Positions 1 through 39,223 of a stretch of DNA of 64,000 nt are shown piece after piece. The stretch is from Polytrichum commune (lineage: Eukaryota > Streptophyta > Polytrichopsida > Polytrichales > Polytrichaceae). A program made the translations under genes and the position numbers. The number at the start of each line of letters is the position of its first letter. Within the stretch, counting starts at the first letter, position 1. The notes below the pieces were generated by a model. It was given only the letters and a program-made list of their open reading frames with translations. It did not search any database and was not told where the DNA came from. The DNA is taken from assembly GCA_950295325.1 (NCBI GenBank), contig OX485808.1, positions 27,796,527-27,860,526 on the forward strand, written 5' to 3'.

Positions 1-147
1 ACTCACTCCAATACAATGGGAAGAAGCACAAAATCACCTCCAAAACATCATAAACTTGCTTAGCACGTGCATTGAAAAAACTTGCATGACTCAACCAACA
101 CCGCCACTTCCCACCCGGGCCAAGGCTCAAGGAGGATTCCTCCCTAG

Positions 148-2390
148 AACACAACAAAAACATGGAAACACCAATTAAAAATTCACCATACCATCCGGAA
201 AGCAATTCGTACTGCATGCCAACACCCATACACACATCTACAACACAACCCGGATATCCAATCATTACTACTAATACCCACCATCAATATACTGCCCCTC
301 CCCACTAACCAAACAGAACACATACAATGGATAGAAAAAATAACCACCATCGGTAAAAATGCCAAAAACCAAGCACACAAAATCGTTATCAAACAAACAT
401 CGATCAACTATCGCACCGCTATTACAAAATATAAAACGCTACTAAATATCAAACAAAAAATAATTCACAAGGAAATCTTCCACCCCACAATCTCAAGCTC
501 TCTCGATTGCATACAAAGTTCCAAAGGTACATCCTAACCAAACCCATAGACATAGCCAACGAAATATACCATACCCAACAAGCATCATTCCATATGCAAG
601 CCCCATTATGCGAAGATACCATAGACCATCTAAACGCATGCATGTGCGCCATACGCAAATACCCATGGCACACAAAAAATGGAATCATAATTGAAAAAAA
701 AGGCCCACATAACACACTTATTAGCACCCAATTTACTAGGAAAATATATGACAAATGCGTCAAAAGACTAATTCGGGGGAAAGCCCTAGGCACGGACAAC
801 ATACCAAACGACATAATAAAAATTTTACCCTCACAATGTCACGATATGTTTTTCCTATTCTTCCGGCAATGCTACAAACAAAGAGAAATCCCAAACTACT
901 GGAAACACAGTAAAACCATCCACCTAACTAACTATAGACCAATCGCCCTTGCCAACACCATATATAAACTATTTACTAGTATCATAACGACTCTTCTCAC
1001 CAATTACGGAGAACAACATAAAATCTTACATTTTAGCCAAGAAGGCTTTCGACCTCAACGAATACATCCCGACAAATCCAAATGATCATCGCTGCCCTTG
1101 AAGACGCTAGACTCACCACCAAGGATATTTACCTTATATACATTGACTTCCGCAACGCCTTTGAATCCATTGACCACGCCCGCCTACTTGCCCTCATGAA
1201 AGACCTAGGCTTCCCCATAGACATGGTAGAAATAGTTGGCAACATCTACAAAAATTCCACCACTTCCTTCGTCGGTAATACCTTTGGCATAACACCCCCA
1301 ATAAAAATAAGTCGTGGCACCATACAAGGGGACACTCTTAGCCCATACCTATTTATTATATGCCTTGAACCTCTACTCTGATGGTTAGAAAAAGACAACC
1401 TCGGATACCACTTCAATACATCCACATCCACTTGCACCACCACGGCATACGCGGACGATTTAGCAATTTTAACCGACAACGTACAAAACATTCAACCCCA
1501 AATTACAAACTACAAAAATTTGCGGAATGGTCACATATGGACCTCAACCTCTCAAAGTGCGCCATTACGGGATGCCCCAATAAATCAAAACTAAAATCTA
1601 ACACATTTAAAATATACATCCAATCACACAACGTCACATATAAAACCAAAAACTTCCCCACCCTCACACAAAACGAATCATACGCATATCTAGGCATCCG
1701 ACTTATACCATCCCTCAAATGGAACTTACAAAGGGAAATCACTCTCCAAAAAGCTAAACAACAAAGTAAACTACTATCCCTATCCCCAGCCAGTCTTAAA
1801 CAAAAAATCAAGATACTAAACACAGTTATAAAACCCCGTATAGCATATGCATATTATGCAGTCCCATTTTCCAAACCCGACATTACGAAACTAGATAAAA
1901 TAATAGGCAAACTAACCAAAGAAATATGCAACATACCCAAAAGCTCTGCCAACATCCTCACGCACCTCACAAATTAAAACTTTGGCATAAGAGTCTCCTC
2001 CCTCTTACCCGACTACATACACTGCATAGGCCAACAATTACTACAAGCCCTTAACGATCCAGGCCAACTAGGAGACATATACCAAGGCCTAACTAAATAC
2101 ATAGCAGCTAAATATGGAGGCTCACTCCACCTCCCGAAACTTAAACAACAAGCATGTACAAGGTCACCCATAGCCCGAACCCTCTTCCTACTCACAAAAG
2201 AATACGAAATACATGTTACCACGGCCAATCGAGCATTCCCCATTAGAAAAACCCCACTAGAGCAAGCATGGCTATCCAACCCAATATACACCACCCTTGA
2301 TAATGTCTCCAAAGCAAAATCCCAAAAATACCTAGACAAACTCTACACACATGGCATTACACACTACCACAAATTCAAAACAAGCACACC
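148..2390 (+). pseudogene. LINE linker and reverse transcriptase, multiply frameshifted
   Basis: Bases 148-531 (frame 1) encode a Lys/Arg/His-rich linker like that between endonuclease and RT in LINEs. Frame 3 from about 507 carries the RT start (GKALGTDNIPNDI near 772) and NYRPIALANTIYKLF. Frame 2 from about 1058 carries the palm: IDFRNAFESIDH, then GTIQGDTLSPYLF near 1315, then YADD at 1448-1459 after a TGA at 1379. Frame 1 from about 1525 carries the thumb with YLGIRL near 1690; after a TAA at 1975 it continues with a connector containing QALNDPGQLG. The catalytic Asp residues of the palm are still readable. Two or three base changes per kilobase break the frame, so no functional protein can be made. 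Several of the stops could be G-to-A changes. Confidence 0.88.
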
Positions 2391-2393
2391 ACA

Positions 2394-3828
2394 ACCATAC
2401 TCACACAAGAGGAATACCGCAACAAATACAAACTCACACCCAAAACCATCAAAGAAGCCCTACACCAAGCCACAATAATATTCCCTATCACAACAATACC
2501 CAACCCCCCCGAAAATCATCCCCAACCATCACACACAACACCCACAAATAATACTCTAGACCTTAACCACCAACCCCACGACATGGACTCCACACTAGGG
2601 CGGGCCATCCATGAAATAGTTGATACAAAAATCACCAACCGAAAGGACAAATGGGGAGCACAAGCCCTCAAGAGAAAATATCTATGTCAATGGCTCACTA
2701 TGCATGGCACTACACAACAATGGCGCCTTGAGGAAGACCTCTTACACCTGGACAACATACTTTTAGAACACAACCTCCTACTAATAACAAGATACCACAC
2801 CACCACCCATAAACAAAAAGCCATCCAAACATATGACAACTACCTCAACTACACCCAAACAAAAGATAAAAAATATATACACCCCCCGCTTAAAATCACC
2901 AACCTAAAAACATTCACACAAGAATGTAATCCGGACAAAGATATCATTACCAATAAACCTACCATACAAATAAACGCCGCGGAATCCCACATATACGACC
3001 AAAATGGACAATTCCTCGCCACCATTACCACGGAAAGACTAGAATGGCTATGGGCACGTTTTTCTCAAAACAACCTAACCCGCCTAACCAACTCCCTACA
3101 TCCCTCAATACAAAACTTCGAAACAGAAACATTATGGCTCATCCAAAGATACATTACCATACTCCCCAAGAAAAAACCTAAACACATACTACCCAACAAT
3201 CAACACCATACAATACACCCGGAAATCACCAAACTACTCATAGACTCCTTCAAACTCACACACTCATACTATTCCTCCCCACTTACATGTCCCACACAAC
3301 TCACACAATACCACTCCCCACATACCCGCGACATACTATTCGGATCCCTAGGACATGCACAATCGACCAAATGGAGTGGTAGGGGCCTAGCATTCCCAAC
3401 AGACTACAATACAACAGTACAAGCCATTCACTGGGCCCGAATGGCCGCCAAAGAAGATACACAAACAAGCACAATCCTCATAATTAACCACCAAGATTGG
3501 ACACCACAAAAATTAACCCTCACCAAAGGAGCAGATATCCACGTCATCTCTACCATACCACCTCATACCATACAATATAAACCCACACCAGAATGGCCAC
3601 AATATTATCAATATACGGAACCATCACTCACATCCATCATATACATACACAACCAACTAACCCCAACACTGCACCAACAATTCCCAAGCAATCTAAATAA
3701 AGTCCTTAAAAGAATTACCAACACCCACATAGACATCCATCCCATTCAACCCACTCCCAACAATTATCACATTAAATTTTCCAAAACTTGGAAAACCACT
3801 CCCATAAACCACACCACCCCCCCCCCCC
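2394..3828 (+). pseudogene. LINE central domain of unknown function (between RT and RNase H)
   Basis: Frame 3 is open from about 2394 (reading ILTQEEYRNKY) to 4052, so about 480 residues of this region are intact. The C-terminal two thirds hold a block that looks globular: SPLTCP near 3277, then DILFGSLGHAQSTKW (3330-3375), GRGLAFP, AIHWARMAA, TSTILIINHQDW (about 3465-3500), a short IPPH segment and PEWPQYYQ near 3590. An aromatic/Trp-rich strand-like pattern of this kind is reminiscent of Rossmann-like methyltransferases such as phage-type adenine methylases. I see no clear (D/N)PP(Y/W) motif, so a function cannot be claimed. The RNase H that follows is in frame 1; the change of frame falls at the 12-C run 3817-3828, a likely slippage site. 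Confidence 0.55.
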
Positions 3829-4881
3829 AACAACAATGTAACACTACCCCTAAACCCCGCATACAACCACATGCACCCCCTCAAATACCACCCACAACAA
3901 TGCATATATATGGACGGTTCCTTCATTCCACCTTCCAAGAACTCCGAGGGACAAATAGTCGGCAATATCGCGGGCTCAGGGGTATACAGTCCCAACAACA
4001 ACACCCAAATAGCCGAAAGATTACCGGGATACCCCAACATTCTAAGAGCTAAACTCAACGCCATACTTATAGCCATAAAAACTATACAAACCACCCAAAT
4101 AGACACACATATATTCACCGACAGCCTTAACAACATTTACCTAATAAACAACCACATCCAACACCCAACATCTCAACACCACCACCCCGACAAGTTACTC
4201 ATCGCAGCCATCGTTCACCAAATATATTGGACCCCACACATGATACACATACACAAAGTACGCGCACACACGGGAATTAGAGGCAATGAAATGGCGGACG
4301 CACTAGCTAATGAAGGGACACTCAAAGACAAACCAGAAAACACGCCACACATACACATAGCACACGCTACCCCCTATTGGCTAGCAACCTCCCCCACGGC
4401 TACACATGATGGAGCCATCCGCAACCTCCACACATTCATAATGAAAGATCACGAAAACCGAGAAACTTCACTAGCCAAACAAAAATTCCCATACGTAGCC
4501 AAATGGCTCTCGAATGAAGAAATCAACCAAAAACTCTCCAACCATTTTTGGAAACATGATAAAATACCCGACACACAAATTACCCAAACTCTAAAATTTA
4601 GATATGCCCAATACATGGGTAACCATAGGAAAAATATATTTTGGCCCCTTAAATACCAAAACCCCAACTGCACACTATGCCGCACCAATGATAGAGACAC
4701 ATGGCCACACCTATTATCCACATGCGAACACCCATACCTAAAAGGCCTACGAATCGCTAGACACAATAAAGCAACCCACCTCATTGCCCAAACCTTACAA
4801 GCCAATAAAAACACCAGGTTCTTCACCTTGACCAATGCGGGCAAACTATCCAACCAACCCCAAGACCAAACAATTCCCGAC
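3829..4881 (+). pseudogene. LINE RNase H domain and Cys/His cluster
   Basis: Frame 1 is open through this stretch. RNase H1-type motifs are YMDGSF (catalytic Asp codon at 3913), then RAKLNAILIAI, FTDSLNNIY, and HTGIRGNEMADALANEG near 4270-4315. The second motif normally reads R-A-E-L; here the catalytic Glu is Lys, a change expected to abolish activity and explained by one G-to-A change. About 120 residues downstream CTLC (near 4671) and HLLSTCEH (4708-4731) form a CCHC-like cluster, followed by a short RHNKA motif. RNase H would remove the RNA strand during second-strand synthesis. The frame ends at TAG 4882, but the same frame continues immediately with the next conserved segment, so this stop is probably a mutation. 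Confidence 0.85.
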
Positions 4882-4884
4882 TAG

Positions 4885-5331
4885 CTCCTCCAATGTATAT
4901 GTACGCAAGAACCATGCCAATGTCAAGCCAAATTAAGACCAGACATAATGTGCATTATCGGAGCTCCCAACCAAACACAAACTCCAATACTACCCTCCCC
5001 AAGCCACACCGTACAATTCATTCAATTCACCTACTGCCATGATAGATTCCCCGAACAAGCCCGCACACGCAAACACAACAAATATGACCCACTAATTACC
5101 ACACTAAGAGCTAACGGATGGAATACCAACCCCCTCATTATTATCACCGCAGGAGTAAGAGGTGCTATTCACGAAAACTCCATCGAGCAACTAACCAACC
5201 TGAAAATCCCTAAAACCCACATCAAAACCCTCATGAAAAACATACACCAAAATGCCATTAAATACCTCACCTACTTGGTCCTAAATAAAAGGAAACTTGA
5301 CAACAAACAAAACCCTATCCCACCACCATAA
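4885..5331 (+). pseudogene. LINE C-terminal domain, PD-(D/E)XK-like nuclease candidate
   Basis: Read in the same frame as RNase H after TAG 4882. A Cys-rich stretch (C-I-C then C-Q-C) is followed by LRPDIMCI, a loop, and VQFIQFTYCHDR, then TRKHNKYDPLITTLRANGW, a Gly-containing strand, and a helical Lys-rich end. The order R-P-D-I, hydrophobic strand ending F-(E/Q)-F-T-Y, then a Lys/Tyr helix matches restriction-like endonucleases of some non-LTR elements, which cut the target site. The residue expected to be Glu is Gln here, so this copy would be inactive. Assignment to the fold is inference; the segment is certainly part of the element's coding region because the frame is conserved for 149 codons. 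Confidence 0.55.
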
Positions 5332-5560
5332 GGTGGAAATTATTTTGTAATACACCAGAACCCACCTCCCACAGGAGGCATAACACCCAATATTGCATCT
5401 CGGATTCCCGGAATCAATATAGGGTTAACGGGCTCACATTCACGCCGGTATGCATATATAATACGGGCGTTATCTTTTCTTTTCTTTTCTTTCCAACCTA
5501 CCATTGGTTGTAATACCACCCTTGAGCAATGGAGAATTGTTGCTCAAGGACTTGGCCTGA
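5332..5560 (+). other. Probable 3' untranslated end of the LINE
   Basis: Non-coding stretch after the last LINE stop codon. It contains a short hairpin-like CACCTCCCACAGGAGG segment (about 5360-5380) and a pyrimidine repeat at 5473-5493. The exact 3' end and the target-site duplication cannot be fixed because the 5' end of the element is outside the window. Confidence 0.4.
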
Positions 5561-13983: not shown

Positions 13984-16900
13984 TCAATCCTTCACGACGC
14001 TCGAGGCGAACTGGACGGTCTTGCCAATCGGGATGTACTCGCCGCTGAAAGTGGGCGGCTTGTAGCTGGGTGGTCGCGGCGGTGGCTGTCCAAAGAACCC
14101 ACTGCTGTTGCCATTGTTGTTGTTGTTTGAATTTCCTCCACTTTGCGCGAACTGCCCAGATCTTGGAGGCGTGTAAGAGTTTGAATCCCTCGAATCCGGC
14201 CGCCCGGCCTGCTGCATGTTACCTGAATTGTTGGAAGAGAACTGGCCCGACCTAGGAGCGGTGTACACGTCGATCCTTGATTCATCGCCCAGCAAGTCGC
14301 CACCGGAATCGCCATCAAACTCCCTGCTTGAGGTAATGTTGATCGCGTTGTATTCGCTGCTGTGAGGTAGGGCAAACTCCCCACTTCTGATCGCAGGGAG
14401 CCCGAACTCGCCGCTCCTGATTTGGGGGAGGCCGGATTGCTGGGAGCCCAGCATGGGCTTCTTGAACGACCGGATCCCTGCGTTGTATTCCTCCGTGTCG
14501 AACTGGCCACTGTCAACTCCGTACCTGTTGGTGCCCCCACCGTATTCGCTGCCAAACTGCGAGTCGTACTCCATGCTTTGACCCGGCTTCATGCCCTGGT
14601 AGAGGCATGCTCGGTCAGAGTCACTCTCGAGTGCACGCACAACCTGCAGCAGAGGATTACATCAGGTCAGAGAAGAAACAGTCCAGCAAGGGTTTGGGGT
14701 TTAACCCCCCCCCCCTTTACACTAAAGGTTGAGAGCTCAAGGTTATAGAAGAAACAGTGAGGTGTTAAGACTCGAAGGGGTTTAAGGCCCCCTTAAAGTA
14801 GAGGTGTTAAGACTCGAAGGTTGAGAGAAGATGGGGGGACAGTAGGAAAAGAAGAAGAATATTTGCAGTTGAACTTGCACGGACATGCAGACGGTTGTCC
14901 GGATCGAGTAGGGGAAATTAATGGCTCCCAAATAATAGGTTAGTCTTTACAACATTTAGATGCTTGAAAATGGAAGGGAGTTGTCAAGTAGGTTAGATGT
15001 CGCATTGATTTAGATGCTTACGAAATGAAACATATTTATGTTCACACATACAAGAGGGAGCCAAGAGAGCGACCTTCTTAGCAATAGTGCATTCACAAGT
15101 TTGCATGTGACCACTTTTGTTATGACAATAATCCCCTTTTTCTTCTTTCTCGCTTTTGCTAAATCTTTTTGGCATGAAAAATATAATTAGTACTAGTCAA
15201 TTACAGGACCCTACAAGAGAGAGGAAACATCTCAGCCAAGCTTTAGAATTTCAAAGGAATGTAAATGCAAATGTGAGTTCGCAGCCCGAGATCACTAACC
15301 TGTGCCATTCTTGGACGCTTGAGAGCCGAATGTCGCACACAAGCAGCTGCTGTTTCGATCACACGAATCATTTCAGTGTGATCATATTCATCCATATTAG
15401 GGTCCACAAGATCCTCCAAATGACCATCTTCCAGCACACGGTTCATAACGGGCCTAGCCCACTCCACCAAACTCTCCTCTCCCACTGGCTGTCTCTGGTC
15501 GATCGGCTTCCTCCCGGTCACAAGCTCCAGCAGCACAACACCGAAGGAATACACATCTGATCTGTCTGTGAGCTTCCCGCTCGCAGCGTACTCCGGCGCC
15601 AGGTACCCGAAGGTTCCCATCACTCTCGTTGAGACATGAGTGTGAGTGTCAGAGGACAGCTTCGCTAACCCGAAATCAGCAACCTGCAGATATGCTCAAG
15701 CCCACTCAGCTATGTCAGTGGTCGTTAAAGGTATTCAACTCCACACATAATTTTGGCCATCAGATCGATTCAGTAATTGTCTCATCCTGTTAGCAATTGC
15801 GACTTTTGGAAGATTGTCATTTGCAGTTGCAGAATCGGAGTGTAGTTGCAAAAGATCTCGGAGATTAGTTCTCTCTTCGTATTGGATAGACCCTCCAATT
15901 GTGTTAACAACTGAACCTAGAAAGATTGATATATTTTAAGCACATAGTGCAATCCCATATTTTTTTTGGTGTCCTATCTTAACTACAAACCTTTCCATAA
16001 TTCAATTACAGATGTCCAATTATAAAGATCAACTACGTAAGACCCACATACCTACATTACATGCATTTCACTTTCAGAAGATCAGGTTAAATGAAGTGTG
16101 ATCTAATCCAATCAGAGCAGGATTCCTCACTATCACACTTATTCACAAGGCTGCCAATGCACCACACAATTACCTGAGCTTCAAAATTCTCGTCGAGAAG
16201 GATGTTGGAAGACTTGATGTCCCGGTGAATGATCCTGGGGTGGCAATCCTCATGCAAGTACGCAAGACCCCGGGCACAACCGAGGCCAATCTTGAGACGC
16301 GTGCTCCAATCCATGATGGGCATGTCGGTATTGTGCAAATTATATTCGAGAGTCCCGTTCGGCACGAAATCATACACGAGAAGCCGCTGGCTGTCAGCAA
16401 CGCAGTAGCCCACGAGCGAAACCAAATGCCGGTGGTGCACACGGCTGATGACCTCGACCTCCGCTCGAAACTCACGATCGCCCTGTCCGCCGCCCACAGT
16501 GAGCTGCTTCACAGCCACCAGCGTCCCGTTTGGCAGCGTGCCCTTGTACACGCGCCCAAACCCACCCTCCCCTAACAAATTCTCGCTCGAGTAGTTGTCC
16601 GTGGCGACCGCAAGCTCCTCAAACGTGAACCAAGAGCGTGAGTTCCCCATGGCATCCGACCCACCAGACGGTGGAGGGGGTATCTTGCCATCCGAGCTCC
16701 CGCCCGAGTGCATGCCCCACGCATCGGGGACATCACCCGTCCGGTACTGCGCTCCCGTGAGCGGCACGGTGGCGCCCGAGCTCTTGTACGCATACGCATT
16801 TGCATCCAAATGGTGCCGCTTCCTTTTCTTCTTCCGGCAAAAACAAAACACGACCGCAACCAAAAACACAAAAATCACTACCCCGCCGCCCGCAACCGCC

Positions 16901-18225
16901 ACGCCGACCGACGTGCTGATCTTCGAGCTACTCGAGGAGGAGGAATTTGTTGCAACCGGAACCGACGTCGGCCCCGACGATGAGCCGGGAGGAGAAGGAG
17001 GGGTTAACACCCCGGGAGTAAAAGCCGTCCCCGGTGGACTTGCGGCGGCCGGGGGCGGGGGTGGAGCCCCAGGTGAGGTCAATGGTGATGAAGAATTCAC
17101 CGGCGGAGGTGGTGACAACGCCGTGGGGGGAGGTGCGGGAGGTGGTGTACCTGGAGCAACAGGTGGCGGCACGCCTCCCGAGGGGGCAGGTGCGGGAGGC
17201 GGTGAGGAGCCTTTCGGCGGAGGCGCCTGCTGCTCCTTCGGGGGAGGAGCTGGAGTGCCGCCAGCGGGAGGTGGAGCTGGAGGCGATCCTGGGGGTGGGC
17301 TTGTTGGAGGGGGAGCTGCGGCACCCGGAGGCGTTGCGGGAGGGCTCGGCGGTGTGGCGGGAGGCGGCACATTCCCAGCTGCAGGGGAGGTTGCTGGTGG
17401 AGGGACAGGCGGGGAGGCAGTCGGAGGCGAGCCTGTTGGAGGGGCAGAAGCGCCTGGTGGCGGCGCAGTTGCGGCAGAGGGGGTGGCAGCAGGAGGTGGG
17501 GAGGGGGCGGGCGGGCCAGCAGCATTAGGAGGCGGAGATGGTGGGGAAGAAGATTGAGGCGGGGGAGTAGATTGAGGTGGCGGGGAAGTAGATTGAGGTG
17601 GCGGGGAAGGAGATTGAGGTGGGGGGGAAGATTGAGGCGGTGGGGAAGAAGATTGCGGAGGGGGGGAAGAAGATTGAGGCGGGGGAGAAAAATATTGAGG
17701 CGGGGAAGAAGACAGAGGTGCACTAGCGGCGGGAGGTGGAGACGGGGGTGACCCTACAGGAGGAGGTGGTGGTGACACTGCCGGGGGTGGGACAGCCGCT
17801 GGGGGTGGTGACACTGCCGGGGGTGGTGACACTGTTGGCGGTGATCCTGTGGGGGGGTTGGCCGCCGGAGGAGGGGTAGAAGCAGGAGGTGGACTGAGGA
17901 CATTGCCGCTGGTGGGAGCAGGGGGGGGGGCGGAGCTAGAGGCAGGAGGGGGGGAAGCGGTTGGCACTGAATTGGTGGAGGGTGGGGGAGATGGAGGGGA
18001 CAGGGATGCAGAAGAGGAGGGAGGAGGGCTGGAGCTCAGCAGAGGCGGCGGCGATGCTGTTGGTGCTGGTGAAGTTGTTGTTGATGATGTTGTTAATCCT
18101 GCCGGAGGTGGGCCGGTCGAAGCTTGCGGGGCGGGACTCAGTACTGTTGTGGGGGAAGGGGAAGAGGAAGAGGAAGAGGAAGGGGCACTGGTGGCGGGGG
18201 ACGTGGCTGCAAAAGCACTAACCAT
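13984..18225 (-). CDS. Proline-rich extensin-like receptor kinase (PERK family), 3 coding exons
   Basis: Plasma-membrane receptor-like Ser/Thr kinase thought to sense the cell wall. Coding exons are 18225-16174, 15683-15300 and 14643-13984; both introns have GT/AG borders in phase 0 and the sum is 1031 residues. Residues 1-435 are a Ser/Pro domain with many SPPP units and a tandem SPPPQS block (about 181-230). Residues 439-463 are the membrane segment, followed by basic RKKKRKRHH. The kinase starts near 533 ([14 protein letters not shown]) with GEGGFG 552-557, VAVK (Lys573), [10 protein letters not shown] (Asp669), then ADFGLAK (Asp687), [11 protein letters not shown] and [19 protein letters not shown] in exon 2. 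All catalytic residues are present. Exon 3 closes the kinase (VRALE) and adds a roughly 200-residue tail with repeated SG(Q/E)F motifs. No classical signal peptide is visible, as in other PERKs. The start is the first Met of the open Pro-rich frame. Very C-rich coding strand; the long plus-strand frames opposite exon 1 are shadows. Confidence 0.93.
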
Positions 18226-18740
18226 CTTTGCAAGCCGGCTCGCTTGCCTGCCAGATTCAGCCGCTTCTCAAAATTGGAAATTCTTCACTGAGCTGGAAAA
18301 GGCTCTGCAGCATCCAGCCCCGGGAACAAGTTGCTCGAATGCCGATGCGGGAGTTCCAGCAGCCCCGCACGCTGGCCTACGTCTTGGCCGGCTCAAGTGT
18401 TTCTGCAATTGCAATCATAGAAAAAGGCCATCAATATCTTCACAACACTCATGCACCAACATTTCCCACTACATCAAAGATTCAATGACTCAAACCAGGC
18501 CACTTGAATGCTGCGAAAAATGTTGAAGCTAGACTCTTGATCTCCGGTGGAGAGACGTCGGTCTAGCATTGCAAAGTGCTGGAATGCGGGAGATCTTAAG
18601 AATGTAGACTCTGTACAACATGACTACAATCTTCTGAAATCGAAATCCCAAGGATAGGAACATACCTGCTGAGATGGTCGATCCCCACTTTCCAATCTAT
18701 TATTGGTTTATCTAGCTACTCGCTTACTCTCTCTTTTTAG
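18226..18740 (-). other. PERK 5' leader with a candidate untranslated intron
   Basis: On the minus strand a good donor (CAG then gtatgttc) lies at 18665 and a good acceptor (gattgcaattgcag) ends at 18403, which would remove 263 bases from the leader. Both sites are inferred by eye; transcript evidence is needed. The plus-strand frames at 17849-18526 and 18228-18488 are not supported. Confidence 0.3.
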
Positions 18741-33600: not shown

Positions 33601-36600
33601 TGCTGTTGAATTACTGAACTTCAATACTTGTAGGTCAATCTCAAAAGGGGAGATGTAGAGTACAGTAATAAAAACGAACCTGTAATAATTCTGGACTGGC
33701 AGTGTGTAAAAAGCAGAACACTCCAGTGATGCTTCCTTCTGCATCAGTTCTTTTATTTGCGGTAAGGAGGGCTTCAACATATTTGCCATGTCTGTCAAAG
33801 AAAGAAAATGGAAACCTATCTGTATCTTGTCCGTCCATTGCACTGTTCAGTACTATCATAAACTTGGTCATCGCATCTTGACCCTTCAGCCGGCAACACA
33901 TTAGCTGCATACCAAAGATCTCACCTACTAGCGATTTTCCAAGCACCTGCAGTCACATTCACAACAAAACCAACTTTCATTTGCAGAACTTTCAAGGAAG
34001 GCTTAATATAGATTCATGGACTCAGTTCCGAATACCCATGTGACATGAAGTGGTCCAGAACCAAGGCATCATACTTGACAACACTGTTTCATCCCTCTCA
34101 TTTGATCTTATTCAGGCCTGTTACTATCTTCACAGAAAAGGTTGAAACATTACCTCTTCTCTCTTCCATCCAGTCAACTTTTCCATGGAGGGGTTCCATT
34201 CAGAGCAGTAACCAAATTCATCAGATCCAAAGATTGGAGGGATCAGTGGGTTTGGATTTTGAACAATAGCTTTGTAGTCACCCTGAATTCGTGTAAACTT
34301 GTCCAATACCTGCTTTTGCCCCGTCACATCCTGTCCCACAAAACAAACTCCAACCACATTCTCTGTAACGTCCCGACTCGAGCATGCATTTACAATCAAT
34401 ATGACTGCATTGGCTTTCTCTTTTTGAGACCCAAATGTCTTCAACTGAATCTCCACATTCTGCTCCTCTACACCTGTCAAAGATCAGCAAAGAACAACAC
34501 AGATCAGCAGCAATTGTCACTTACTAATATTGGTTGGTGATATTTCCTTTTCCTGTTTATTTGATAAAAGCATTGTTTTCAAATATCGTTATTTAGATAA
34601 ATTATGATGCTTCAGAACCCCACAGGGTGCAACATATAATTTTTTATATCACACTCCCTGTTTAAGAGCTCTTCTATAAGGATAGTGAAATCATTCTACA
34701 AGTTGAATACCACAAAGCATTCTAGAGGAACTTCTCTCCAGTCTATGACAATCATCAATCCTGATGAGAAAGTTACCCGTTCAACTGATTTTGGTCCCTC
34801 TTCCGTTAAGCTGCTCAATCCAACTATAAGGCTCTTTATTGCTCTCTTCTATCAAAGCTGGGTCTAGGTGATGCAGAATATACGACTTTATTGAGTGATA
34901 TAAATTGAAGGTTACAAGGTTCAAATTGATGAAATTCATGGAACACTTTTGTATGTTTGTTCAAGAGGTTGATATTCCCAAGTTCAAAATACCGTAATGC
35001 ATCACCCTTTGCTAACAAGTTGTCCTACAATCAATAATTACATAAAGCTGAAAAGATCAAGGTCACTTAAAACCTTAACTTTAGCGTATTGTAGATCCAT
35101 TAGATCATCTAGAAAATGAGACTTCTGAACCTCAATTTATATTGTACCTAAAAGCAAAGTTGTTGCTAATGATTAAGATCGCATCAATACAGTAGCAATG
35201 TTTTAAAAATTCAAGATTTGTTTATAATCGCTTTAGAATCATTAAACTTCAAGAAATTGTGATAAATATATGCCATAAAATTTTGGTCCAAACTTTCAAG
35301 ATTATATTAAGAATAGATACAAGATACACACTTTGAGGTCAGAAAAAGAGTCAAAGAAAATTGACAGTTTTCAATCAGATTTATTCTAATATACTATATA
35401 TAGTAACTTATTAACAAAAGGAAAGTTAGTTCATTCTTGACTTTTAGAATCTGTTGTGAACAACCATCCTTTCATATTGGAATGGGATCATCACCATTGA
35501 CAAGAAAACTTCGTGAGGAACGCGATGACACCTAATGTGACCTTCCTAGCACCTCCCTTTTGGATGAATTTGTGTTCAAGAGTCCTTTATAAGTCAAAAT
35601 ATAGCCTATTAGGAAGTTAAGGGTTAAACATCAAGTGTCCTCAACCCTACCAATCACCTACGATCAAAAATGCTTGGCACCAAGTGAAAGAGACTTGTCG
35701 TTCAAATCAGAATATATACTTCTATAGACATGCCAAAATGTCCCCTCTGCAACAAAGGATGACAAGTCCAGGTTGGCCTTGATACACATTTTGGAATATA
35801 CAAATTAGAAGTTAGAAGGGGCACATGTAAGGAGCCTTGAGTTTGTATGATCAAACTATCATTTGGACACCACAGCAGCTGCTTCCTTCCTCTCTCTATC
35901 ATTCATAAGGACTTATCAATCTGTTGGTAATGAGGCCTTTCCGTTTCAGAGTAGTGATTGTTGAGCACTCTTCATCAAGTACCACATGGCAATCAATTCT
36001 CAATTATTGTTCTCCATGTGAAAAGGGAGAAATCCTATGAGCGCCTTTCATGATTTTGTGAGCTCCTCTCAAAGAATGACAGCTATAACGGCTAAATTTT
36101 CCTCAACCCATTACACTAAATTCAACATCAAAATGGCCCTAACTGATGTTTTAGATCTGGTTGCAAATCAAGTTTCTGTGGGATGTACCTTGTAATGCAA
36201 GTAAGAGCAGCCGCTCCACAATCTCAATTGATTCGTCCAATACTAGGTCCTTGACCAAGGATCGACCCATAGCTTCCACAACTGGAAGTCCTGTCAATTC
36301 TGCTACTTTTGCATTCCATCCATTGATGAATCCGTTAGAATCCACCGCAAGAATAGGGGCAGTGGCTGTCTCTATCAACCTAACCATTTCATTTGCAACC
36401 GTGCTCAGCTCATCCATGCCCTGAAGCTTCAAATCATTCAGCCGTGCATGTATCATGGTTTTTGTATCACTATCATCAATATCTTGAAATGAACCCCTCA
36501 AAATGAGCTGGAGAGAGTGAATTGCATCCATTTCAATATCCTCCCAGGGCAGACTCCTCCTCTTCACAACTTCTAAGAAGGCCTGGAATGAGGACCTGGG

Positions 36601-38773
36601 GTGCATTCTCCTTCCATCATCCTTGTCATCTGGGTCATGCTTTGCACCACCCCACTTGATCTCCTTCGCAGTGTGAGACCTAAAACAGGAAAGCCATCAA
36701 GAATGTGCAGATGTTAATATCTCTTTAGTTATTGATTTTTTAGGTTTGTAATTTAGGTTGTGTGTGGCCAAAATCTAGGATTATGAAGCTCATCATCCAC
36801 TTAAATGCACAGTACTAGTACTACATGGCGTGGACAATGGCTTCTTCCATGCAGATTGTTGTGGATGGCCACTAGTCAAATTGCTTGCTACCATTTGGCT
36901 GGCTATTGCCATATGCATGATGCACTTTCTATTTCATTCTAGGCTTTTGACTGCTTCTTTATGATGGCTTTGTATTGTAGTATGTAACTCTACCTAACAG
37001 GTTTGAATTAACTATCTATCTTGATTCTCATTTTAAGCTTTGATCGGTTACCTTTATCCGTGAGTACTGGTGTTTGCATATCAATCCTTACAAGGATATA
37101 TGCAATATTGTTTTCACAGAATATATGTTACTGCACTTTCAGGTTATGATATTTCCAATCAGGGCATCACAAAAAGCGAGCAATTGTAATAAGTAGTCCA
37201 GTCACGCTTCACACCTGAACCAGAAGAGAAAATCCTTTGGAGTGATTTTGGCAGCTGCCATTCCACACACAGATTCCCCTAACTGCGCCGCGCCTGGGTA
37301 CCCTGCATCTGCCAAACTGTCTGTACTCAACCCAGTGGAATCCTGATGGTGCTCCAGCAGCCAGTCGGCAATCTCTTTGATCTGAGACTCCGTGGGCGTT
37401 GTGCCCAGCAGCCAATACCGTTTCCCATAGTACAATGCAGCGCCATCGCATTTCACGAGATCCATAATGTTGGGCGACTGCGACACAATTCCTATGGGCG
37501 CATCCCGCAGCAACATGTCACACAGCAACGTCTGTGTCCTCAGAATGTGCTTCTCTCTGAGCTGAGATGCCAATTCCACTTCCATGTTCAGCTGTAACCC
37601 AAACACTTGGGCCAGAAACTCGCAAGCGGATCGCAGGGGGAACGAAACCGTCCGTGGGGACGTGTGGTGACAGACCACCAAGCCCCATAGCTTCCTGCCC
37701 TTCTGCTGGTATCCCCGCGCATTGTACTCTTCATCTTGGTCATTGACAATCACCGCCATGACCAAGGACGCAATAGAGTTCATGTTGCCCATGTACTGGG
37801 CATGGCATCCATGGGGCGCTCGCAGCGTCGATCCTGCAAGGCTAATTGGCTGCCTCAGATCCTTGTCTTGGAGGACTTTCACAGGGGGTGCATAGCAATC
37901 CCCAATCATGCGCACTCGGTTCTTCATAAACAAAAACCTGGAGGCTTGTGGGATATCAGTAGCAGGGTAATGCAACCCCAAGTACGGTTCCAGATCTGTC
38001 CGCCTAATCTCCGCCATCACCTCCCCATGCTCATCCTCATGAAACTTATAAGCCATAACCCTGTCGTACCCCGTAAGCTCCCGAACTTCTTCCACAACAG
38101 TGTCACAAAGCAGACCAATATCACCTCCAGGGAGACCCTGCAAGCGCGAAATCGCCTTCGCCGCAAGTTTATGGCTCTGCAGAGCCCCAGCAGAGGACAC
38201 AATCACATCGTTCGACCGCACGGGCTCAAAATCCATCACCAACCCCACATCCACGCGGTGTAAGATGGCGTAGAATGGTTTCCCTGAGCTTCTGCAATGC
38301 ACAGCTATGGGATTCATCATGCTCACATCCATGGCAACTGCAGCTTTCTCCAATGCGGCCGCACTCGAAGGCGTAAACAAACATCTCGCATCAGTGCCAA
38401 TCCCCAACACATCCTGCTGCCCAACACTTGGGACTGCCTGGAGCATCAGGTCAAGCATCTCCGGTGCATTCTCGCTGTACGCAAGAACCCTAAAACTACT
38501 CTCCTCCACTGCAAGCATGCACCCAAATGTTTGGATGAGCCCCCCTCGCTGCATGCGCTGCAGGTATGCGGTGACTGCCTGTGCGGGGACACTCTCCCCC
38601 GTCGACTTGGATGCGTGCACAGACTTGGAGTAGTCGAATGAGTCCCCTGAGTCACCGGATTCCTCGTACACCGCTTGTAGCTTTGCATCTGCGGTTGTCT
38701 GCGCCACGCGTACGCTGTGCTTCGACTTCACCGAACTCCCTGCTGACATGGAAGTCATCTTGGTGGTCGACAT
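30675..38773 (-). CDS. PHY: Phytochrome (red/far-red photoreceptor), 7 coding exons, complete
   Basis: Bilin-binding photoreceptor acting in cytosol and nucleus. Coding exons: 38773-37215, 36679-36189, 34473-34154, 33946-33680, 32869-32637, 32204-31911 and 30897-30675, all with GT/AG borders; they sum to 3387 bases, 1128 residues, the normal plant length. Residues 1-60 are the Ser-rich N-terminal extension ([13 protein letters not shown]). The PAS-GAF part has [10 protein letters not shown] (271-280) and the chromophore site [10 protein letters not shown] with Cys323 and His324. The PHY-domain tongue has WGG (529-531) and PRSSF (547-551). Two PAS domains follow in exons 2-4, then the histidine-kinase-related module: [12 protein letters not shown] (Glu where bacterial kinases have His), [15 protein letters not shown] and [14 protein letters not shown]. 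It ends [15 protein letters not shown]. The junctions after LQ-G (684), ED-G (957) and EF-R (1055) are the classical phytochrome intron sites; those after FWF (520), KREE (790) and ELLQ (879) are extra. The first Met fits other phytochromes (MSTTK). Which paralogue it is cannot be told by eye. Confidence 0.97.
31238..31697. mobile_element. Family B element in the last phytochrome intron
   Basis: Lies wholly inside the intron 30898-31910. Blocks GTGAGGGCCC(T)TGAAACTCAT, GGGCCCTTCTACACAATGTA, AGGTCCTCAAGCTCTAGTGT and a TTTTAGATTT block match 26565-27372 in order. The right end reads CTAGTGTAAAGTGCCCC. It is in the same plus-strand orientation as the long copy. Confidence 0.7.
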
Positions 38774-38780
38774 CTCGCAT
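38652..38780 (-). promoter_or_regulatory. Upstream ORF overlapping the phytochrome start
   Basis: An ATG at 38780-38778 begins 7 bases before the phytochrome ATG (38773) and in another frame. It runs 42 codons to TGA 38654-38652, inside the phytochrome coding region. Both ATGs have a purine at -3. Being so close to the main start, this ATG is almost certainly in the mRNA, and could lower translation of the receptor. Whether it is used is unknown. Confidence 0.6.
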
Positions 38781-39223
38781 ACTCCCTAGCCCTCTCTCTT
38801 TCGCTCTGTCTATCTCTTTCTCTGTGTCACGTCCACTCTTGCACAGAAGCTATGCACCCGCCTGCAGACAGACAGAAAGCCAACCCAATCAAATCCAAAT
38901 ACCACTCCGCCTGCCTCTGCAAACACAAAATTCTCTTTTACGGTCAATCTTACAAAGAAGCCAACCAACCACCCGCTTGCAGACAGAGACAAACAGACAG
39001 AAAGAAAGCCAACCCAATCAGTTCCCACTGCCACTCCGCCTTTCTCTGCAACATAGGAATTGCCAACCCAACGTGTTGACAGATGGATGGAACGGGTGTT
39101 AATGCTGACCAAAGCAAACGACGGCAAACTCTGAGCGAACTAGCTCATCCTCCTCGTCCTCGAGACACCAAGCAACTCCTTCACCGCCTCAGAGTCAGGG
39201 TTAGGCTTCTTCAAAGGCTTAGG

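Follow-up and report, generated by a model that had tools for sequence, protein, structure and literature searches.

The first 5493 positions of a 64,000-nucleotide stretch of the Polytrichum commune genome (hereafter the window) hold the 3' part of a non-LTR retrotransposon copy that is dead; the element is present in many copies in this moss and most probably belongs to the dual-endonuclease Dualen/RandI type, Dualen being compared by description only. In intact copies, an ORF1 is followed by an ORF2 that encodes, in this order, a 2A motif (NPGP), an APE endonuclease, a reverse transcriptase (RT), a PCIF1/CAPAM-like domain, RNase H, a CCHC cluster and a C-terminal restriction-like endonuclease (RLE). 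As predicted from sequence, the layout comprising APE, RT, RNase H and RLE is the set that defines Dualen/RandI. What is new about this element is its PCIF1-like domain, its 2A motif, its host and its abundance.

The window copy and its lesions

The first-pass annotation, made on positions 3829 to 5331, had described a LINE in which RNase H and a CCHC-like cluster are followed, past one TAG, by a PD-(D/E)XK-like domain. RNase H (in the frame 3808-4884; Pfam PF00075, E 3e-13) and the cluster are indeed present in that arrangement, and the frame runs on past a single TAG (4882-4884) through 4885-5331 with the motifs LRPDIMC (4933-4953), FIQFTYCHD (5017-5043) and HNKYDPL (5074-5094). Beyond what was then described, the element continues far upstream, with APE, 2A and ORF1, and has the PCIF1-like domain placed after RT and before RNase H. 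The intact copies L010, L011 and L012, used in tblastn, matched in changing frames across the upstream sequence L009 and the window up to position 5328, and the window copy extends about 5.3 kb beyond the upstream edge of the window. Its features, all on the plus strand, are as follows (negative positions lie upstream of the window):

about -5308 to -2652 (L009:2692-5349), +: ORF1
about -2043, +: 2A NPGP
about -1000 to -160, +: APE domain
1..5493, +: 3' part of one dead LINE copy, most probably of a dual-endonuclease element (tblastn of L010/L011/L012, frames changing)
645..1645, +: reverse transcriptase, broken by frameshifts (Pfam RVT_1, motifs)
2916..3803, +: PCIF1/CAPAM-like methyltransferase-fold domain (Pfam PF12237, alignment, family fold match to PCIF1)
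3898..4317, +: RNase H (Pfam PF00075, E 3e-13)
4669..4725, +: CCHC zinc knuckle CTLCRTNDRDTWPHLLSTC, preceding the nuclease (C, C, H and C invariant in 22 relatives)
4882..4884, +: in-frame TAG (TGG/Trp at the same place in intact relatives)
4885..5331, +: predicted restriction-like endonuclease (PD-(D/E)xK), C-terminus of ORF2 (alignment, model, R2 fold match), with PD at 4939-4944, Q for E at 5023-5025, K at 5071-5073 and 5080-5082, and TAA at 5329-5331
5332..5438, +: 3' UTR (common to close copies; flanks diverge past the tail)
5439..5474, +: conserved 3'-terminal hairpin, TTCACGCCGGTATGC...ATACGGGCGTTATC
5474..5493, +: short-repeat tail (CTTTT)n, 3' end of the element

The Pfam matches in the window follow the frame order RT, PCIF1_WW (PF12237) and RNase H. 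Compared with L012, the nearest intact copy read, the window copy shows at least six frame changes and several in-frame stops; judged against the intact relatives, the TAG at 4882-4884 is a lesion of this copy. In addition, the nuclease glutamate is replaced by Q, which occurs in the window copy only when compared with 22 relatives, and the catalytic glutamate of RNase H is K (RAKL), whereas it is E in seven intact relatives. Given the frame changes, the in-frame stops and these two substitutions, we consider the window copy dead. The sense strand of the element (window 1-5400) consists of about 0.39 A, 0.30 C, 0.12 G and 0.19 T, with A and C strongly enriched and G and T depleted relative to the remaining window.

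The family in the moss genome

The host genome comprises 408 Mb, nearly all of it held in seven large contigs; a moss-type rbcL query matches its contig C8 at 95%, as expected of a moss. The C-terminal 126 residues recur at no fewer than 150 scored places of this genome with 75-98% identity (5006 first-look candidates), so that the C-terminal motif pattern is not a product of chance. ORF2 frames of 2123-2924 codons were found in eight copies (L010, L011, L012, L013, L027, L028, L029 and L030). The subfamilies are clearly distinct, with an RLE identity of 40-48% between the L011 group and the L027/L028 group; domains were compared copy by copy and not through a whole-element consensus. For the pair L028 and L030, whose synonymous sites are unsaturated (dS 0.42-0.63), dN/dS is 0.05 in both RT and RNase H, 0.07 in APE, 0.10 in RLE and 0.13 in the PCIF1-like domain. 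By this comparison of coding sequences, all five ORF2 domains are under purifying selection, and values of 0.05-0.13 indicate that both nucleases and the PCIF1-like domain were retained by selection up to recent copies.

The C-terminal nuclease

An alignment of 22 relatives revealed that C-C-H-C, RH, [RK]PD (HD in one copy), FIEFTY or FVEFTY, and K..KY are nearly invariant, and the PD, E and K residues are kept across subfamilies only 40-48% identical. The AlphaFold model of the domain (pLDDT 81, pTM 0.80) matched R2 proteins, with a best Foldseek E of 4.8e-7 and VIA Z of 12.2-14.4 (rmsd 2.7-3.0 over 164-173 residues), and the next family was that of the bunyavirus cap-snatching nucleases (Z 9.2). 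The sequence profile alone retrieved only R2Bm, weakly (E 2.4). The PD-(D/E)xK assignment is thus supported by residue pattern, fold and selection together, and the predicted domain is supported as a restriction-like endonuclease of the R2 type. The nuclease-like C-terminus that had been proposed from the window copy is therefore borne out by the residues of its relatives, which retain P, D, E and K, and by the fold search, which led to the R2 restriction-like endonuclease.

APE, reverse transcriptase and RNase H

In intact copies the APE domain lies upstream of RT and is recognised by Pfam Exo_endo_phos (E 9.3e-8 to 1.3e-5) and the motifs QETK, GDFN and SDH; its closest PDB family is exonuclease III. 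The RT of the window copy (Pfam RVT_1, E 2.7e-10, frame 1037-1381) carries YIDFRNAF at 1139-1162, QGDTLSP at 1325-1345 and YADD near 1448. R2 provides the closest solved RT, and the RT profile reached 130 bits with R2 of Platysternon, compared with about 81 bits for human L1 and for R2Bm. The RNase H residues of the relatives are D, E, D, H and D.

APE, RT and RNase H also occur in plant L1 LINEs, of which this genome is full, and the element might have been one of them with a C-terminus that resembles a nuclease by chance. We consider this very improbable. In an RT tree built with few references (eight moss L1s, human L1 and two R2s, no Dualen RT among them), the elements cluster together and are separated from every L1 by a branch with support 100/98. 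The C-terminal model has the R2 RLE fold (Z 12.2-14.4), PD, E and K are conserved between the 40-48% identical subfamilies, and RNase H has a histidine here, as opposed to the arginine of the archaeal-like RNase H of plant L1s (PMC4640811). A plant L1 identity was rejected on the basis of the RT tree and the fold. The grouping with ordinary plant L1 elements that would have undone the land-plant dual-nuclease proposal of the first-pass annotation is thus absent, and the proposal gains support from an R2-like RLE combined with an APE upstream of an RT that falls outside L1.

The PCIF1-like domain

The domain between RT and RNase H was recognised in the window copy by Pfam PF12237 (PCIF1_WW, E 3.6e-7). 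A profile of 20 copies, searched against all PDB chains, retrieved PCIF1 only (6irx, E 0.0032; 6irv, E 0.13). The model of the domain (pLDDT 78.5, pTM 0.77) matched all six PCIF1 entries (Foldseek E 3.2e-11 to 2.1e-9) with VIA Z of 15.4-16.0 and rmsd of 4.2-4.5 over 217-228 residues, the next family being RlmJ (7.9); it aligns to PCIF1 417-673, the methyltransferase core only. The FxSP and FGSxG motifs are retained. The catalytic NPPF is replaced in 44/44 copies read, by HPHN, HPHT, FPTD, HPPN, HPYN and similar, and reads FPTD (3393-3404) in the window copy. Since NPPF is found in none of the 44, we regard the domain as PCIF1-like in fold and do not file it as a PCIF1 enzyme.

N6-adenine methyltransferases of the PCIF1 type require NPPF, and METTL14 (EPPL) is a known example of a fold that is retained yet non-catalytic. 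The loss of NPPF from a domain that is nevertheless kept by selection favours a role in binding over one in catalysis, and the modelled domain is probably a retained non-catalytic RNA-binding module; the cap is a plausible ligand. An active methyltransferase with an altered motif, which would mark the RNA or cDNA of the element with N6-methyladenine, is distinctly unlikely given the replacement of NPPF in every copy read, although the PCIF1 methyltransferase-core fold is retained in the model and constrained according to dN/dS, and other retroelements do possess methyltransferases, such as the DNMTs of Symbiodinium LINEs and the Dam-like enzymes of DIRS (PMC5890265).

Comparable cases are SymbioLINE-Dnmt, SymbioDIRS-Dnmt3 and the Dam-like DIRS, where a methyltransferase fold was likewise taken up by a retroelement. 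The enzymes there are DNA methyltransferases, located in ORF1 in the case of the LINE (PMC5890265), whereas the moss element has a cap-RNA methyltransferase fold in ORF2, in the interval between RT and RNase H, with its catalytic motif replaced. With respect to PCIF1/CAPAM itself, the cap-specific adenosine N6-methyltransferase (PDB 6irv, 6irx and 6irz), the domain shares the methyltransferase-core fold, FxSP and FGSxG and differs in being embedded in a LINE polyprotein and in lacking NPPF. Our literature search met no report of a fusion between PCIF1 and a retrotransposon and, as far as the literature was searchable, no retroelement methyltransferase of the PCIF1 family or at the RT/RNase H position. 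The PCIF1-like profile found no relatives in prokaryotic genome contigs, nor did the RLE and PCIF1-like profiles in viral contigs.

ORF1 and the 2A motif

ORF1 has a conserved core of about 540 residues, with dN 0.12 at dS 1.8 between the window copy and L012. ORF1 was searched in the window copy and in one relative without a Pfam match above the cut-off, and that of the window copy has no PDB match either. In the window copy, ORF1 is a single open frame of 886 codons despite the badly broken ORF2 of the same copy.

ORF2 starts with a part judged by eye to be hydrophobic and of low complexity, followed by the 2A motif, which reads GDIELNPGP in L010, GDIETNPGP in L012 and L027, and GDIEPNPGP in L030. 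NPGP is present at this position in 9/9 copies read, twice in L013, and is absent from a six-frame translation of 56 kb of the remaining window. The StopGo/2A core is (D/G/C/N)(V/I)ExNPGP (PMC12846837); it is matched exactly in L010, L012, L027 and L030, and in L011, L013, L028, L029 and the window copy the place of E is taken by K, H or Q. Since the 2A frame is shifted relative to the rest of ORF2 in L011, L012 and the window copy, these three carry at least one lesion. A recent StopGo survey reported no natural use in plant viruses (PMC12846837). Some copies contain a tandem duplicate of the 2A-containing unit a few hundred bases apart (L013:878-1340; G000:C2:44327115-44327798; G000:C1:44784460-44785263; G000:C2:36080449-36081594), and a second unit, though only a partial one, is also found in the window copy.

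Ends and insertion

In the copies of the subfamilies read, the 3' hairpin starts with TTCAC[GT]CCGG. Between subfamilies, both arms of the stem change in concert (e.g. GGTAT/ATACC and GGTCCC/GGGACC), and in six of the seven sequences tested the hairpin folds better than nearly all shuffles. The tail that follows is (CTTTT)n in the window subfamily, while other subfamilies have (CTAT)n or (CTT)n. L029 is 5'-truncated relative to L028, with which it has 13.3 kb in common, and is flanked on both sides by GACTCCCACT, a target-site duplication of about 10 bp; about six additional bases stand at its 5' junction. Since the flanks vary between copies, there is no sign of a fixed target site. The hairpin, the repeat tails, the 5' truncation and the target-site duplication are signs of target-primed reverse transcription with recognition of the 3' end.

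The 3' UTRs of L027, L028, L030, L036 and L044 contain stretches such as GGGAATCGAACCTGGACC that resemble an antisense tRNA T-arm. ARAGORN called no tRNA in those of L027, L028 and L030; they are possibly a piece of an old SINE.

Relationship to known elements and proposed mechanism

The combination of APE and RLE defines Dualen/RandI (PMC4640811, PMC3636483), for which RNase H is reported too (PMC4640811). These elements were placed in green algae only by a 2015 survey (PMC4438587), and are also known from further Chlamydomonas relatives (PMC8226300) and from cryptophytes (PMC12747079). For land plants, our search, which covered mainly openly accessible papers, found no report. The moss element resembles Dualen/RandI in its APE upstream of RT, its RNase H downstream, its RLE and its short-repeat 3' tails, which are of the same kind as the (ATT)n and (CTATTT)n of algal RandI but are built from other units (PMC3747384); it differs in its land-plant host, its PCIF1-like domain and its 2A motif. 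With R2 (PDB 9nl2, 9nl3, 9dou and 8gh6) it shares the C-terminal CCHC and PD-(D/E)xK fold as well as the closest solved RT. R2 has one nuclease, neither APE nor RNase H, and inserts in 28S rDNA; the moss element, unlike R2, has an APE and flanks that vary between copies. Plant L1 LINEs, among them the L1s of this moss, likewise have APE and RT, but the 100/98 branch of the RT tree separates them from the element; the one moss L1 ORF2 read through, that of L014, showed neither RLE nor PCIF1-like domain. Kojima and Fujiwara (2005) are said to have described Dualen/RandI non-LTR retrotransposons as encoding a cysteine protease also. No Pfam match to such a protease was found in ORF2 of the moss element, long parts of which stay unmatched.

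A PCIF1-like domain and a 2A motif have no place in the described Dualen layout (PMC4640811, PMC3636483), and the tree places the RT at a great distance from R2 and L1 alike, on a stem of 2.4 changes per column. The moss elements could accordingly form a new, deeply branching LINE clade that shares both nucleases with Dualen without being its sister, the layout being ancestral or gained a second time. We find this rather unlikely, in view of the full Dualen set of APE, RT, RNase H and RLE and of the resemblance of the tails to the (CTATTT)n and (ATT)n of algal RandI (PMC3747384).

For a moss element of the Dualen/RandI type, we propose that the 2A would act during translation to split off the N-terminal part of ORF2 from the polymerase polyprotein. 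The element protein would then copy the RNA that encodes it by target-primed reverse transcription, with the 3' hairpin and the repeat tail as the features it recognises. One nuclease would nick the first strand and the other would possibly serve the second, a division of labour that we infer, and the template would be cleared by RNase H. The PCIF1-like domain would most likely serve to bind RNA instead of methylating it, with the capped 5' end of the element transcript as a plausible ligand. We tentatively suggest, at somewhat less than even confidence, that a land-plant LINE lineage may have captured PCIF1, lost its chemistry and retained it under selection as a part of its polymerase that binds the cap or the 5' end. 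If so, it would be the first known LINE with a device for recognising the cap, and land plants would have their first reported dual-endonuclease LINE lineage. That a LINE may recognise the capped 5' end of its own transcript, as the PCIF1-like domain suggests, is relevant to cis-preference and to the completion of full-length copies.

Dualen-type elements have been used to argue for a LINE switch from the restriction-like to the APE nuclease (PMC4640811), and have so far been described from few algae. A many-copy land-plant lineage with intact frames, in which selection maintains both nucleases, lets the question of why two nucleases are kept be tested.

Other sequences in the window and genome

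Pieces of a phytochrome gene (PAS_2, GAF, PHY and PAS) lie on the minus strand of the window at 36154-38785, and a GC-rich frame with a protein kinase domain at 16090-18267, also on the minus strand. Elsewhere in the genome, L014:1-7316 is a moss L1, belonging to a separate LINE family, whose two long open frames have 600 and 1845 codons. On a nuclear contig, G000:C3:14137816-14138196 holds a 127-codon rbcL piece that is 93% identical to the moss-type rbcL query and is likely to be plastid DNA moved to the nucleus.
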